Of a stretch of DNA of 48,633 nucleotides, positions 37,777-44,423 are shown piece after piece (the first letter of the stretch is position 1; every line of letters begins with the position of its first letter). The translations under genes and the position numbers were made by a program. A model generated the notes under the pieces. It saw only the letters and a program-made list of their open reading frames with translations. It ran no database searches and was not told the origin of the DNA. This stretch comes from a virus, in the IMG/VR virus record IMGVR_UViG_3300032086_001439, positions 1 to 48,633 of that record. One strand, given 5' to 3'.

Positions 37777-39738
37777 TTATTTATAATTCCTGTCAAACCA
37801 ATCGTCCTGGGACATATCATTTATAGTTTCCACCACCTCTTTATTATATAACTCTCGCGTATGATACATCCCAACCATAAAGGCCATGACCCGGTCAAAG
37901 TTACCTCGATGGTTAAACTTTATTAGTTCTTGCAATAGTCCTATGTCATAAATCTCGTGTAAGTTAAGTCTTACTTTCCCATCTGCGTCTGTTGATCTTG
38001 GGGAAATTAACCAGTCTCTTATATAAAGCTCTCCTTGGCGTTTTCGTTGCTCGGTCATGTGCATCCCATATTGACGTCGTACATTTCTGGATTGCAATTC
38101 CCGTTTATCCAACATTTCAAATTCTTCCTGCAATTTGTGCAGTTTGCGATAGCGCTTAGCATAAGCTATGAGCTCACCACGATCATTCTCAAACCCAATC
38201 TTTGCATTGTAGTAGTCTGCAAGTAAGAATAGATTACGGTTGTATTCGTCTTGTGTTTCTGGGCGACCTACATAGCTAGCCACAATTATATCGTCAGGCT
38301 TAGATAGATTGTTAGGTCGCTTGATTACATATGCTGCCCCGAGCGACTGGTTGGTTGTGGATCTCCCCTGCGCGTACGGGTCATGGCATATTATATAGAG
38401 ATTATGAGGTATGTTACCTTCCTTGGTTTTAAATGGGTTCTCATAAACAACTACACCCCCAGTTAAGTTGTCGTCTTTCCTGTGTGGGAACTTGGTTATA
38501 GGCTTTACTCCAGGGTCTGGGCGAAACTCTACACCTTCTCCCTTGTGGTATAGTACTCCTGCAGTTCCCTCCTTTTCTAGGTTGTGTGCCTTGACTCTGT
38601 TGTATTGTTCTTTTAGAGACGTTACGTCAAAGATGTTAATTGTTGTTTGGAGTGTAGCTTCTTGTGGGGTAAATGGGTGCTCAGCTGTGTACTGGTCTAG
38701 TGCTTTCGGATCGTTTGCCTTCTTCTTGTTCTCTCTGGCTGCCTCTTCAAACTCTTTGGCCTCGTCAATTAGGGAGTTCCCATCTTCATCCATAAACCCG
38801 TCTAAGTTCTGGTAGATAGGGACAAAGTACCCACACTGTGTGCCCATAGCACCTGCATCCCACTCATTATCAAAGGCTAAGCAGTTGTATGCCTCCGGGT
38901 GATAAAACAATTCTTCTAGTGATTCAAACCCATGTCCCTCTTCACCCCCAGTACCGAATGCTATCATTGTACCTAAGGTCTTAGAACCTTGTTTCATTGT
39001 AGGCATAGCTATCTCCCAAGCTGTTAACAACCCTGAGAATGAACCTGCCTCTTCAAAGAATATAAGTTCCCCGGCTTTACCACGCACTTTGTGCGGATTG
39101 TCCTTTAGTGATACCCCTATTATTTGTGATTTCATACCCAACGCTACATCAGTCCCGTTAACACGCTTCTTGTACCCGGATTGCTTGTGCATTTCCTTAT
39201 CAATCAGCCTAGGCTGTGTCCATGCTGTGTTATCGTCTATGAATGAGATAAAGTCCCATGTTTTTGATAAGAGTCCGTCCCCAGTTAGGTATTCTTTCTG
39301 CTCTGCAAACACGAAGTTCTTAGAGTTACGCAGGTGGAAGTAGTTACGTGCTAGCATACTACCGGCTTTGTAGGAGAATCCCTTACGTCTGGCCTTTAGT
39401 ACAGACATATGTTTGTTCTCTTTTCTGCAAGTGTCTACTGCGTGGTAATAGTGGTAGTCCCCATCGTAGAATGCAGGAAATGTACGCTCTCTGCGGGCTT
39501 GCACTGTCCCATCTGGGAGTACTTCGTCTACTGCACGGTCAATTGGGCAATAGTTTAAGTAGAAGTAGTGATATCCTGTAATCCTAACCCCATTTACCTC
39601 AAACCCGTACAAACATCTGTCCCTTTCCCTATCCCAGTGGTCATAGTATTCTTTTGTACCGTCTAATGCGTCGGTATAGTACCCATGTTCTAGGTAATGT
39701 GTTGCTGCCGGGGAGAATAAGTGGGTATCCTTAAACAT
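37777..39738 (-). CDS. terL: Terminase large subunit (653 aa)
   Basis: An ATPase-nuclease motor that cuts and pumps DNA. The Walker A region is the degenerate form KARRKGFSYKAGS (115-127), Walker B is ELIFFEEAGS (224-233), and a coupling-type segment TMIAFGTGGEEG lies near residue 258. The nuclease part contains YIICHDPYAQG at about 450 and FENDRGELIAYAKR at about 520, with acidic metal ligands. Such a Walker A without the classic GxGKT is what I recall for crAss-like terminases. The start overlaps the stop of the 89-residue membrane gene as TAATG. A strong call from motifs, length and the adjacent portal gene. Confidence 0.9.
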   Translation of the reverse strand: MFKDTHLFSPAATHYLEHGYYTDALDGTKEYYDHWDRERDRCLYGFEVNGVRITGYHYFYLNYCPIDRAVDEVLPDGTVQARRERTFPAFYDGDYHYYHAVDTCRKENKHMSVLKARRKGFSYKAGSMLARNYFHLRNSKNFVFAEQKEYLTGDGLLSKTWDFISFIDDNTAWTQPRLIDKEMHKQSGYKKRVNGTDVALGMKSQIIGVSLKDNPHKVRGKAGELIFFEEAGSFSGLLTAWEIAMPTMKQGSKTLGTMIAFGTGGEEGHGFESLEELFYHPEAYNCLAFDNEWDAGAMGTQCGYFVPIYQNLDGFMDEDGNSLIDEAKEFEEAARENKKKANDPKALDQYTAEHPFTPQEATLQTTINIFDVTSLKEQYNRVKAHNLEKEGTAGVLYHKGEGVEFRPDPGVKPITKFPHRKDDNLTGGVVVYENPFKTKEGNIPHNLYIICHDPYAQGRSTTNQSLGAAYVIKRPNNLSKPDDIIVASYVGRPETQDEYNRNLFLLADYYNAKIGFENDRGELIAYAKRYRKLHKLQEEFEMLDKRELQSRNVRRQYGMHMTEQRKRQGELYIRDWLISPRSTDADGKVRLNLHEIYDIGLLQELIKFNHRGNFDRVMAFMVGMYHTRELYNKEVVETINDMSQDDWFDRNYK

Positions 39739-41468: not shown

Positions 41469-41753
41469 TTAAATAATCTTTGGGATAACTCCTACGATCT
41501 GGAACTCATTAACGCAGGCGAACTCTCCCTCATCTAGGTGTATGATGAGAGCTCCCGATTCTGGGTGCACAAGAACTGTGTCCCCCTCCTTAACCATCTG
41601 ACAATCAGGCCCTGCAGCTTGTACTTTTACTACGTTAGTGCTGATTGCTTTTTGTCCCTCTCCTAGCAGGTGAATACCGGAGTCGGTTTGTTCTACTCTT
41701 GGGGACGCGAATACTACCCAGTCACGGGTTGGTTTGAATTTTAACTTTGCCAT
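41469..41753 (-). CDS. GroES-like co-chaperonin (94 aa)
   Basis: The 94 residues match the chaperonin-10 fold in size and pattern: a start like KFKPTRDWVVFASPRVEQTD (the basal strand of GroES), a mobile-loop-like SGIHLLGEGQKAIS, then VVKVQAAGPDC and the later strands EGDTVLVHPESGA, ending FQIVGVIPKII. GroES caps GroEL to fold client proteins. Phages such as T4 (gp31) make their own cap so GroEL can fold the large capsid protein. Position before the packaging and head genes suits that role. The mobile-loop residues that contact GroEL look diverged, so host compatibility is unknown. Confidence 0.75.
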   Translation of the reverse strand: MAKLKFKPTRDWVVFASPRVEQTDSGIHLLGEGQKAISTNVVKVQAAGPDCQMVKEGDTVLVHPESGALIIHLDEGEFACVNEFQIVGVIPKII

Positions 41754-41788: not shown

Positions 41789-42259
41789 TTATATAGTATC
41801 AAAATCTATGTAAGTAATTTCTACGCACTCCCCATTCTCTAGTGCTTCAGCAATTGGGGGGTATATTCTTTTGTATGCGCTTGTTGATGATCCCACAAAG
41901 CCGTCAGACTTTATGTTTTCTGTTTGCGTGTCGCCCACGAGTAGACACCCGCTAGTATGATCGTCATTGTTACCGCAATGGATAAGAATATACTTAAAAT
42001 TAGGAACATCTTGAAGCCAAAGAGTCCCTTTATGAATGTCAGCAAAGCGTTTAGTATAGTTTTCATGAATTCTACCCCACGTACGAAGCTTAATTTCATA
42101 CGTCCCAGCAGGGATGCGGGTTTCATGCATAACTTTTTCTTCTCTGTATTCGTCTTCAAGTGTGTAGCAAAGAAATTCTCTCTTATCATTTGTTACGTTA
42201 AACAGCAATCCTAGTGTGCTGTCTTTAGCTGAGCTAAATCTAATTACTTCTAAGTCCAT
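41789..42259 (-). CDS. DUF5675 protein (156 aa), L,D-transpeptidase-like motif
   Basis: The segment IHCGNNDDHTSGCLLVGD (about 93-110), preceded by ETRIPAGTYEIKLRTWGR, fits the DUF5675 family as I know it. The His...Ser-Gly-Cys arrangement resembles the YkuD-type L,D-transpeptidase active site (H93-94, S103, C105). It lies in the lysis cassette beside holin-like genes, so an action on peptidoglycan (endolysin or cross-link editing) is plausible. No signal peptide is present, which fits holin-dependent release. The start overlaps the protease gene by 20 bases. Enzyme activity is an inference. Confidence 0.65.
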   Translation of the reverse strand: MDLEVIRFSSAKDSTLGLLFNVTNDKREFLCYTLEDEYREEKVMHETRIPAGTYEIKLRTWGRIHENYTKRFADIHKGTLWLQDVPNFKYILIHCGNNDDHTSGCLLVGDTQTENIKSDGFVGSSTSAYKRIYPPIAEALENGECVEITYIDFDTI

Positions 42260-43400
42260 TTTTCTGGTGTTTATTTAGCAAATCTAGCAAGTATTTTACC
42301 GATTCGGTTTTCACCAGTTCTTTTTCTTCTCTGTAGAATGGGTCAAGCTCAGCTCCGTAGCAGATGTTCCCCCACTGGGCTAGGACAATTGTTACATCGT
42401 TAACTGTAAAAAATCCATCCCCGTTTACATCCCCTGCTTCCCAATATATATCATCCCAGTTTGCTAGTATTAAGAGTAGGTCGTTCATCCCAACTACAAA
42501 GTCCCCACTAATGTCCCCTAAGCAGACGTCGTCGTCTTGGTCTATAATATATGGGCGTGTGATTGGGAGTACGTTGTGCATACGTTCTATCTGCCCCGGG
42601 GTAAAGTTTGTCCTGCAAGAGTCTACGTAGTAGTCCATGTGGTTGTTGGGGGTGTAGTCGTAGAGTCCGGGAGGACATACGGGGTTCTCGCAGCTCCAGT
42701 TTAGTTTGGTTGGGGGTGTGTCACATACAAAGTCCCCTGTGTTTTCGCAGTACCCCAGATCCTGTCCGCAGTATTCAACGTTTCTAAATACGTGGTGCAA
42801 ACTAACATAGTGCCCTACTTCATGAATTAGCGTTTTGTTCCCGTCTCTGGGTGGGGATATGTGGTCCCCAATTCTCCCAAACACATCTGTTCTTACCCAG
42901 ACCCCGTCCCAACTGTTATTTACGTAGCTAGTCCAAGCAAAACCTAGTATCCCTGAGCAGAATTGTGGGAATACATGGACGTTCATGTATATCTCGTTGT
43001 CCCACTGCACTTCCTCTAGGTACTCTTGCATCCCGTAGAAGACTGATCCAGTGTATGGGGCGCAAGCACCATTAGGGGCAAGTATTACTGGGGCCATCCA
43101 GAAGTCATCGAAGTTGTGATACTGTATAGCTACTAGGTCAAAGGAGAACATAGCTTCTTCGAACTCCTCGTTTAGGTGATCGTCTGCGTCATATATTATG
43201 TCTTCTGCTAGGATGCTGTTGGGGAAACTATCTGTGTAGTGTATGTGCACTACGTAGTTGATGTTTTTCCAGGTCGGGGGGTCTGTGTATAACCCCATAA
43301 CTTTGATGTTGTTGTTTAGCTCTGGGCTAAACACAACGCAACTGTCCTGCTGCCCATAACCAAATAAGGGCATCAGTAATATTAAAATTAAATATCTCAT
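42240..43400 (-). CDS. Secreted M43-type zinc metalloprotease with dockerin-like C-terminus (386 aa)
   Basis: An N-terminal signal peptide (MRYLILILLMPLFGYG) marks it for export. The catalytic part (about 100-285) has HEVGHYVSLHH (193-203), the zinc motif HExxHxxxxxH; GDFVCDTPPT (222-231); and NHMDYYVDSC (253-262), which carries the Met-turn. FTPGQIERMH follows. These are the hallmarks of the M43 pappalysin/cytophagalysin family, common in Bacteroidota. Residues 293-345 hold two dockerin-like Ca-binding repeats (GDISGDFVV and GDVNGDGFFTVNDV). It sits between the Trx-like gene and the DUF5675 gene, coupled through TAATG. Possible roles are degrading host or biofilm protein, or aiding lysis. 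Confidence 0.85.
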   Translation of the reverse strand: MRYLILILLMPLFGYGQQDSCVVFSPELNNNIKVMGLYTDPPTWKNINYVVHIHYTDSFPNSILAEDIIYDADDHLNEEFEEAMFSFDLVAIQYHNFDDFWMAPVILAPNGACAPYTGSVFYGMQEYLEEVQWDNEIYMNVHVFPQFCSGILGFAWTSYVNNSWDGVWVRTDVFGRIGDHISPPRDGNKTLIHEVGHYVSLHHVFRNVEYCGQDLGYCENTGDFVCDTPPTKLNWSCENPVCPPGLYDYTPNNHMDYYVDSCRTNFTPGQIERMHNVLPITRPYIIDQDDDVCLGDISGDFVVGMNDLLLILANWDDIYWEAGDVNGDGFFTVNDVTIVLAQWGNICYGAELDPFYREEKELVKTESVKYLLDLLNKHQKNGLRSN

Positions 43401-43714
43401 TAGTCTTTGAGTGAGTTGACCAAACTTTGGATCTCCTCAAAGGTAGTATTTAACTTAAGACTTATGTCAGCAGCATATTGCTGTTTAGGGATATTATCTT
43501 TATATACAACGACAAGAGGTACTGACGAAATGCTAGATTGAATGCTGTACGGTTGGTTTTCTAACCACCCAAATACGTACTCGCAGTTCTTTAGGTCGCG
43601 TAGTTCCTCTAACGTATTGGATTTGTTCCACTTAGCATTAATCTGTACTACAGTTACCTGTGCAGAAAGTCCTAGAGATAGTCCCATGGCTAGTAGTGTA
43701 AGTAGAGCCTTCAT
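43400..43714 (-). CDS. Secreted thioredoxin-like protein (104 aa) lacking the CxxC active site
   Basis: A signal peptide (MKALLTLLAMGLSLGLSA) precedes a thioredoxin-like fold: a strand VVQINAKWNKSN where the usual W-C-x-x-C reads W-N-K-S-N, then a helix, then SSVPLVVVYKDN at the cis-proline position of thioredoxins. One Cys (LKNC) remains. Since both active-site Cys have become Asn it is probably not a redox enzyme but a binding or chaperone-like protein. Because the stop overlaps the protease start (TAATG), it may help fold or inhibit the secreted protease. Residue-level alignment was done by eye. Confidence 0.6.
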   Translation of the reverse strand: MKALLTLLAMGLSLGLSAQVTVVQINAKWNKSNTLEELRDLKNCEYVFGWLENQPYSIQSSISSVPLVVVYKDNIPKQQYAADISLKLNTTFEEIQSLVNSLKD

Positions 43715-43998
43715 CTTCTCTTGGCTTCTGTGCTGAGCTCGTACAGCCTGTCCTCGATTATGTCTAGCTTTTTGCCGTTCTCCTCTACCTTCTTCTGAGT
43801 ATTCATGATAGTCTCTCGGACTAGCTTGTCCTTGAGATCGTATTCTGTTCTAGATATACTAGGTTCTGGAAGACGCTTAGCTTCTTCTATTTCACCTTGC
43901 AGTGCGAACCACATTCCGACTACGGTTCCTACAAAGCTTATGATTATGGCGATTGTCTTGAGGTCCAGGGTTACTTGAGTTCCCTCATTTATTTTCAT
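43711..43998 (-). CDS. Membrane-anchored coiled-coil protein (95 aa), spanin/holin-accessory type
   Basis: One hydrophobic segment (about 13-32, LKTIAIIISFVGTVVGMWFA) follows a short polar start. After that the protein is charged and helical with heptads (LVRETIMNTQKKVEENGKK), ending in a basic tail (STEAKRR). Same layout as the 21384-21599 product. It sits between the holin-type gene and the secreted genes, so a lysis accessory role (spanin-like or holin regulator) is the best guess. It overlaps both neighbours by four bases. Confidence 0.6.
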   Translation of the reverse strand: MKINEGTQVTLDLKTIAIIISFVGTVVGMWFALQGEIEEAKRLPEPSISRTEYDLKDKLVRETIMNTQKKVEENGKKLDIIEDRLYELSTEAKRR

Positions 43999-44423
43999 CT
44001 CTTAGTTTTTTCAATAGTTCTACCTGCAAAATATGCTCCGAACGACGTGAGCATGAGTATTTGTAAGAGGTCTACATAACTATCTTTTACATTGAATGGC
44101 CAAGCGTCCATTGAGTCTGCTATCATAGTGAGGCAGAACATTACCATTAATGTGATTAGGGTTACAGGACGTATCAGCTTCGCCAACTTTACGTCACTCC
44201 CCATGTCTGCTTTCCATCGTTCTGTTACGTTGTTTTGAAAAGCAATCTCAGCGTCAATCTTTGCCTTAGCTTCTGCTGGATCGACGTCTGGTTCTTTATC
44301 AAGGAGATTCTTGACTACACCTAGGGCCCCCTGATTTGGGAGGAGCTCACCTACTGTGTCTAATACGCCTGGTGCTTTCTCTTTTAACCAAGCTCCTAAC
44401 TTGGTGTCTTTAATCTTCTCCAT
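43995..44423 (-). CDS. Holin-like protein (142 aa), GTA_holin_3TM-type
   Basis: The central FQNNVTERWKADMGSDVKLA followed by KLIRPVTLITLMVMFCLTMI has the W-x-x-D-M-x-S-D and L-x-K-x-x-R-P spacing I recall from the three-transmembrane holin family of gene transfer agents and phages. Hydrophobic helices lie at about 88-105 and 115-135. The N-terminal 75 residues are soluble and partly helical. Holins form membrane holes that free the endolysin. It opens the lysis and secretion cassette. Length and motif agree; pore formation is inferred. Confidence 0.7.
   Translation of the reverse strand: MEKIKDTKLGAWLKEKAPGVLDTVGELLPNQGALGVVKNLLDKEPDVDPAEAKAKIDAEIAFQNNVTERWKADMGSDVKLAKLIRPVTLITLMVMFCLTMIADSMDAWPFNVKDSYVDLLQILMLTSFGAYFAGRTIEKTKR

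Follow-up and report, generated by a model that had tools for sequence, protein, structure and literature searches.

A holin-linked M43 metalloprotease with a dockerin-like tail in aquatic phages with Bacteroidota as their probable hosts

What may a secreted metalloprotease do for a phage that encodes it among its lysis genes? The question is raised by a 48.6 kb linear IMG/VR record, analysed here over its full length (the window), in which an initial annotation had noticed an open reading frame with the hallmarks of an M43 protease. To our knowledge, models of Gram-negative phage lysis comprise three steps (holin, endolysin and spanin), none of them proteolytic, and we know of no secreted metalloprotease that forms a standard part of holin-endolysin-spanin cassettes. 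Lysis by Bacteroidota phages has been poorly studied.

The large terminase subunit (TerL) encoded in the window is about 43% identical to those of crAss-like gut phages, and its portal and major head proteins fall into the families phrog_6547 and phrog_11589. On the sequence of these three crAss-type proteins, the window is a fragment of a crAss-like (Crassvirales-like) phage. The order of genes on the minus strand is holin, a 95-aa protein with a transmembrane segment and coiled coil, a 104-aa secreted protein, M43 protease, DUF5675 protein, GroES-like protein, several small genes, TerL and portal, and the relevant features are as follows:

43995..44423 (-): holin, 142 aa, first gene of the cassette (phrog_3427, lysis/holin, 1.4e-21)
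43711..43998 (-): 95-aa protein, N-terminal transmembrane segment followed by a coiled coil, i-spanin-like topology by eye (from sequence; about 10 loci, same cassette)
43400..43714 (-): 104-aa secreted protein, thioredoxin-like by eye, lacking the Cys pair (from sequence; 9 loci)
42240..43400 (-): M43 (pappalysin-type) secreted metalloprotease with C-terminal dockerin-like EF-hand pair, 386 aa, hereafter P0001 (Pfam PF05572; PDB mirolysin and ulilysin; Foldseek)
41789..42259 (-): DUF5675 protein, likely in the endolysin slot (PF18925, 9.6e-27)
41469..41753 (-): GroES-like co-chaperonin, next gene downstream of DUF5675 (phrog_3188, 1.3e-7)
37777..39738 (-): large terminase subunit, crAss-like (phrog_6681, 7.5e-130)

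The M43 gene overlaps one neighbour by a single base (43400) and the other by 20 bases (42240-42259), in an operon-like arrangement. The same gene order is found in L001 (identical) and in L023, L024, L032 and L033 (65-66% identity). Because independent contigs repeat the same neighbours around the M43 gene, an assembly error joining phage DNA to a bacterial gene, which the initial annotation had contemplated, can be rejected; the placement in a phage lysis operon that it had proposed holds, and recurs in many phages.

Several observations concern the neighbouring genes. The 104-aa thioredoxin-like protein (VVQINAKWNKSNT...VPLVVVYKDN), located between the spanin-like gene and the M43 gene, lacks the active Cys pair, and a GroES-like gene lies close downstream of the M43 gene both in the window and in its crAss-type relatives. 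An N-acetylmuramoyl amidase of the phrog_822 family fills the slot of DUF5675 in L022, L029 and L039, and the DUF5675 protein therefore probably serves as the endolysin, an assignment made only from this slot replacement. Treating DUF5675 as a solved peptidase was discarded, given a model of poor quality (pLDDT 53.5) and empty Foldseek and PDB searches. A 92-aa out-of-frame hydrophobic reading frame within DUF5675 (41911-42189, minus strand) is open in crAss-type relatives; it is broken in L037, L040, L050, L063 and L064 and is thus not claimed as a gene.

The features quoted in the initial annotation all reside in the single 386-aa reading frame of P0001, and its assignment to the M43 family was borne out by a match to the Pfam profile Peptidase_M43 (PF05572; 59.0 bits against a cut-off of 23, E 6.6e-16). 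This profile is matched by all 44 representative full-length phage proteins related to P0001, on the alignment of which the residue counts given below are based. The closest solved sequences in a PDB sequence search are mirolysin, ulilysin and PAPP-A/A2. The AlphaFold model of P0001 has a pLDDT of 73, with the dockerin-like helices modelled confidently and residues 204-252 poorly, and its top Foldseek matches are PAPP-A2, mirolysin and ulilysin (probability 1.00, TM by target up to 0.60). As judged from this model, the protein has a metzincin fold like that of ulilysin and mirolysin. No PHROGs family matched P0001, and INPHARED returned a single weak, partial match. The elements that define the protein are the following:

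43353..43400 (-): signal-type segment, residues 1-16, cleavage before QQ predicted by eye (from sequence; lipobox scan)
43338..43340 (-): Cys21, candidate cysteine-switch residue, invariant in 44/44 (mirolysin mechanism, PMC6949598)
42792..42824 (-): zinc-binding and catalytic motif HEVGHYVSLHH, residues 193-203, with H193, E194, H197 and H203 in 44/44
42618..42644 (-): Met-turn, Tyr switch and S1' acidic residue, N253 to S261 (M255, Y257, D260), with M255 and Y257 in 44/44
42360..42524 (-): dockerin-like module, C293-C347, with two EF-hand Ca loops (296-307 and 324-335; PF00404 below threshold, Ca-ligand positions conserved)

The zinc motif of P0001 corresponds to HExxHxxSxxH, with Ser in place of the usual Gly; among the aligned phage proteins this position is Ser in 16 of 44 and Gly in 28, and in mirolysin it is Asp (PMC6949598). 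Residues 222-231 read GDFVCDTPPT, and the Met-turn segment (residues 253-260) reads NHMDYYVD. The acidic residue at S1', which in mirolysin (Asp289) confers preference for Lys/Arg (PMC6949598), is Asp in 38 and Glu in 6 of the 44 phage proteins. Bacterial M43 enzymes are secreted, calcium-dependent and Lys/Arg-specific at S1', and have short pro-segments (PMC6949598). P0001 shares with the lower pappalysins of this family, mirolysin from Tannerella forsythia and ulilysin from Methanosarcina acetivorans, the metzincin fold, the HExxHxx[G/S/D]xxH motif, the MDY Met-turn, the Tyr switch and the S1' acid. Its Cys pairs C218-C242 and C237-C262 align to the two disulfides of mirolysin, and both proteins have a short N-terminal segment with a Cys. 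Unlike the lower pappalysins, with which its identity in structural alignment is about 22%, P0001 is expected to have three more Cys pairs, lacks the Cys-Gly motif, is fused to a dockerin-like pair and is encoded by a phage beside a holin.

Cys21 and nine further Cys are invariant in the 44 representative proteins. P0001 has ten Cys besides Cys21, an even number that leaves Cys21 unpaired by count. The residue after Cys21 is Gly in only 3 of 44 proteins, and position -2 is acidic or polar, not Arg. An invariant, count-unpaired Cys21 would fit a cysteine switch, a weaker reading than in bacteria in that the Cys-Gly and preceding Arg of mirolysin are missing.

The secretion signal noticed earlier in this reading frame is present as an N-terminal hydrophobic, signal-type segment (MRYLILILLMPLFGYG|QQ). 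A lipoprotein was considered and discarded, as no lipobox is found in any of the 44 homologues, and searches for type IX secretion system (T9SS) sorting domains (TIGR04183, TIGR04131 and PF18962) gave no match in P0001 or in its 44 relatives, leaving P0001 unsupported as T9SS cargo. In the absence of both signals from all 44 proteins, a pool that is soluble in the periplasm or attached through the module is expected until the envelope opens. Four longer phage M43 proteins (L222:5658-7688(-), L223, L224 and L249; 632-709 aa) are encoded close to the same holin but on the other strand, and carry a dockerin-like pair and, by eye, a tail resembling those of T9SS cargo that stays below every cut-off.

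The calcium-binding repeats described by the initial annotation are likewise there, as two conserved EF-hand-like loops (DISGDFVVGMND, residues 296-307, and DVNGDGFFTVND, residues 324-335), with helices at 305-313 and 333-341 in the AlphaFold model, the profile match being below cut-off for Dockerin_1 (PF00404; 19.3 bits against 22.9). Dockerin_1 is matched by 30 of the 44 homologues at E up to 0.05, and the Ca-ligand positions are conserved in all 44 (D296, D300, D307 and D335) or in all but one (D324, 43/44). The GC-type dockerin profile NF041540 is matched by 16 of the 44 phage proteins at E up to 0.05 (best 1.4e-5), with P0001 at 14.1 bits, under the curated cut-off of 29. The phage proteins resemble the GC-type dockerin-anchored proteins of Flavobacteriales and Phycisphaerae in their C-terminal EF-hand loops between flanking Cys, as do some host M43 proteins, but P0001 falls under the curated cut-off and most phage forms extend past the module by a short tail (median 29 aa).

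In some Flavobacteriales M43 proteins (L105, L107 and L108) the C-terminus is formed by a short EF-hand module, and a T9SS domain is absent. Among the Flavobacteriales-type genomes G013-G034, most close relatives of G024 hold 13-44 NF041540 matches each, and more distant relatives of its clade hold few or none; two examples examined sit at protein ends. A cohesin match was absent from 26 of the 30 Flavobacteriales-type genomes searched, which may not include the host of the phage, and occurred once in each of the other four. This scarcity in module-rich Flavobacteriales weakens both the suggestion that the tail binds a cohesin-like partner and a cellulosome-type dockerin-cohesin pairing. The tail is similar to a C-terminal module of which the genomes of some Flavobacteriales, mostly devoid of recognizable cohesins, contain tens of copies each, and from this resemblance in sequence we infer a host-type envelope tag rather than a cellulosome plug.

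A simple scan of IMG/VR returned 12 relatives of P0001 with 61-100% identity, and a profile scan returned 114 viral relatives, of which 80 were kept (39-100%); all 80 retain HExxHxxxxxH and NHMDY. A first scan of genome contigs with close relatives gave no matches. Pairs of proteins 80-97% identical have dN/dS of 0.04-0.20, which, together with the invariant active-site, Cys and Ca-binding positions, argues that the gene is held under strong selection as an enzyme. The nearest bacterial relatives are mostly Flavobacteriales, and the bacterial matches among those listed reach at most 45% identity over the core, or 47% over one 92-residue stretch. A quick tree that included 60 bacterial M43 cores gathers the 39 short phage proteins in a single group (SH-aLRT 96) with no bacterium among them; the long phage proteins L222, L223 and L236 adjoin this group, and L224 and L249 group at 97 with the Flavobacteriales-type M43 proteins L105 and L272. 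These placements indicate at least two acquisitions of M43 genes by phages, both near the same holin. Deep placement is unsure, with long branches for L074 and L082 in the tree of 44 proteins.

Each phage was given a backbone label (crAss-like, ribonucleotide-reductase type or another) according to the genes around the protease, and the labels were mapped on a careful tree of the 44 full-length proteins, on which the label changes 16 times, against 18.0 in shuffles. Label changes near the shuffle level signify that the gene moves between phages with unrelated or distantly related terminases. Linkage was counted over 53 distinct loci, obtained by collapsing near-copies and requiring at least 700 bp of upstream sequence. 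A lysis gene lies within 2.5 kb of the M43 gene in 46 of them, and in 35 of the 53 a holin of the family found in the window immediately precedes the protease gene on the same strand, frequently with the stop codon of the one overlapping the start codon of the other. A 69-aa Rz-like protein is encoded between holin and protease in many loci, and in L034 and L048 the upstream position is taken by tandem small membrane proteins of another family, matched to the holin phrog_2359 in L048. The M43 gene hence travels across unrelated phages yet stays near holins; as holin and protease genes are co-transferred as a linked pair, these adjacencies are not all independent. In a few loci (L081, L085, L088, L094 and L095) the M43 gene is located away from recognized lysis genes and immediately precedes a GroEL-like gene of the phage (541-547 aa).

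Conversely, 80 loci were retrieved by the holin alone. An M43-like reading frame is present in 20 of them, and it is missing from 57 of the 76 with more than 1.5 kb downstream. The initial annotation had held that loss of the gene in close relatives without effect would tell against its reading. Examined as presence or absence, loss does occur, the M43 gene being an accessory of a wider holin cassette; such counts speak to loss and not to its effect. Being optional among holin loci, the protease is not required for lysis.

Other proteins are also encoded after the holin. In relatives that lack the protease, the same holin is followed by a gene for a secreted protein of 691-844 aa with NYDPxAxxDDGSC repeats (L194:5423-7957 and L196:5423-7498; similar proteins in L195, L197, L204, L206, L229 and L230), with the T9SS type A sorting domain TIGR04183 at the protein end in L194 (34.3 bits) and L196 (29.3 bits; cut-off 23). 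The presence of such sorting-domain proteins suggests that this is a slot for secreted cargo. Three tandem related proteins of 444-459 aa (MRxRKYQxGG...) directly follow the holin in L269 (5426-9473), and similar single proteins of 525-551 aa are found in L049, L228, L235 and L239.

Among the explanations for these data, the one we favour, with somewhat less than even confidence, is that the M43 protein has a function within a mobile lysis module carried by aquatic phages most likely infecting Bacteroidota, namely as a probably latent, Sec-exported protease that cuts envelope or surface proteins at lysis. Its direct basis is the fold family, the intact active site, purifying selection, the signal segment, the linkage to holin, endolysin and spanin-like genes across unrelated backbones and the lack of a detectable T9SS signal. 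In this scheme P0001 would be exported by Sec late in infection, would fold around five disulfides and calcium in the oxidising environment of the periplasm, would be stored there, and would probably be kept inactive by N-terminal Cys21 capping the zinc, with the dockerin-like tail, as a host-type C-terminal module, retaining it at the envelope. The action of holin and endolysin could then activate or release the protease, which would cut host envelope or surface proteins before exposed Lys/Arg, and cleavage may aid envelope break-up and free progeny from debris. A pool confined to the periplasm or attached through the module until the envelope opens favours digestion of envelope or surface proteins at lysis. 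We infer Flavobacteriales to be the likely hosts.

The main rival, which we deem rather unlikely, is a receptor-destroying or debris-clearing enzyme that removes receptors and adhesive surface proteins from the lysed cells as well as from neighbouring ones, so that progeny are not trapped, a role for which influenza neuraminidase offers a comparison. The anatomy and position of the protein fit it equally well: short phage forms devoid of a T9SS signal would be freed at lysis, an accessory distribution suits a dispersal trait, and M43-less relatives carry other secreted proteins in the same slot, some with a T9SS domain over cut-off. Against it, no receptor is known, and a broad Lys/Arg protease might harm virions too.

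Still less likely is that the protease remodels the host surface during infection, removing receptors or rival attachment points before lysis (superinfection exclusion), or nourishing the cell through digestion of extracellular protein. The host relatives of the module, at C-termini and in tens of copies per genome, suggest surface attachment, and long phage M43 proteins with tails resembling those of T9SS cargo by eye (L222 and L249) could work at the surface before lysis, which counts against a lysis-time role. Phage-encoded T9SS cargo has been reported in Cryophage (PMC7468147), and as described in the portion of that report consulted it resembles the present case in that variable genes of a phage with a Bacteroidota-type host encode secreted enzymes of host type; the Cryophage cargo, unlike the phage M43 protein, consists of endoglucanase, glycoside hydrolase and PA14 proteins with T9SS domains, and that portion does not mention holin linkage. 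The short form of the phage enzyme, however, has no T9SS signal, and its position beside the holin points to late action.

A periplasmic lysis helper, maturing or activating other lysis proteins or degrading periplasmic inhibitors and sparing the envelope itself, appears improbable: the M43 gene does sit between holin, spanin-like and endolysin-slot genes, but these neighbours vary among relatives (DUF5675, amidase or none) while the M43 gene stays, and no single partner substrate is therefore common to all of them. Finally, a bacterial passenger without a phage role, acquired by recent chance transfer or misassembly, is effectively refuted: M43 genes of bacterial origin are indeed widespread among Flavobacteriales (146 of 150 genomes), but the 114 viral relatives, the bacterium-free phage clade, the low dN/dS, the neighbours repeated in separate contigs and the limit of 45% core identity among the bacterial matches listed all stand against it.

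With regard to known systems, the phage enzymes belong to the same catalytic family as cytophagalysin and other Bacteroidota M43 proteases, and probably share their host phylum. The Bacteroidota enzymes are multi-domain proteins, often equipped with Ig-like domains and, at the C-terminus, a T9SS-like domain (PMC11674741), whereas the phage form is short and has neither. The M43 gene also sits inside a holin-endolysin-spanin cassette. No description of phage M43 proteins or phage dockerins was found in the open-access literature, where absence is not proof, nor was a holin-tied, phage-specific conserved M43 clade found there. Neither M43 enzymes nor lysis cassettes are new in themselves, and there is a real chance that the phage M43 protein is a further lysis component. 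It is conceivable, if on balance doubtful, that the phage enzymes constitute a class of lysis protein of their own: a secreted zymogen protease, mobile and linked to holins, that carries the envelope-attachment module of its host, would add a proteolytic step to Gram-negative lysis or to the release of progeny alongside holin, endolysin and spanin, and would be traded among unrelated Bacteroidota phages.

The phage M43 proteins offer a handle on the role of the dockerin-like C-terminal modules that occur in tens of copies in some, mostly cohesin-less, Flavobacteriales. More broadly, an intact, conserved and holin-tied secreted protease shared by many aquatic phages of unrelated kinds points to a further lysis step, or a progeny-release enzyme, in the phages of Bacteroidota.
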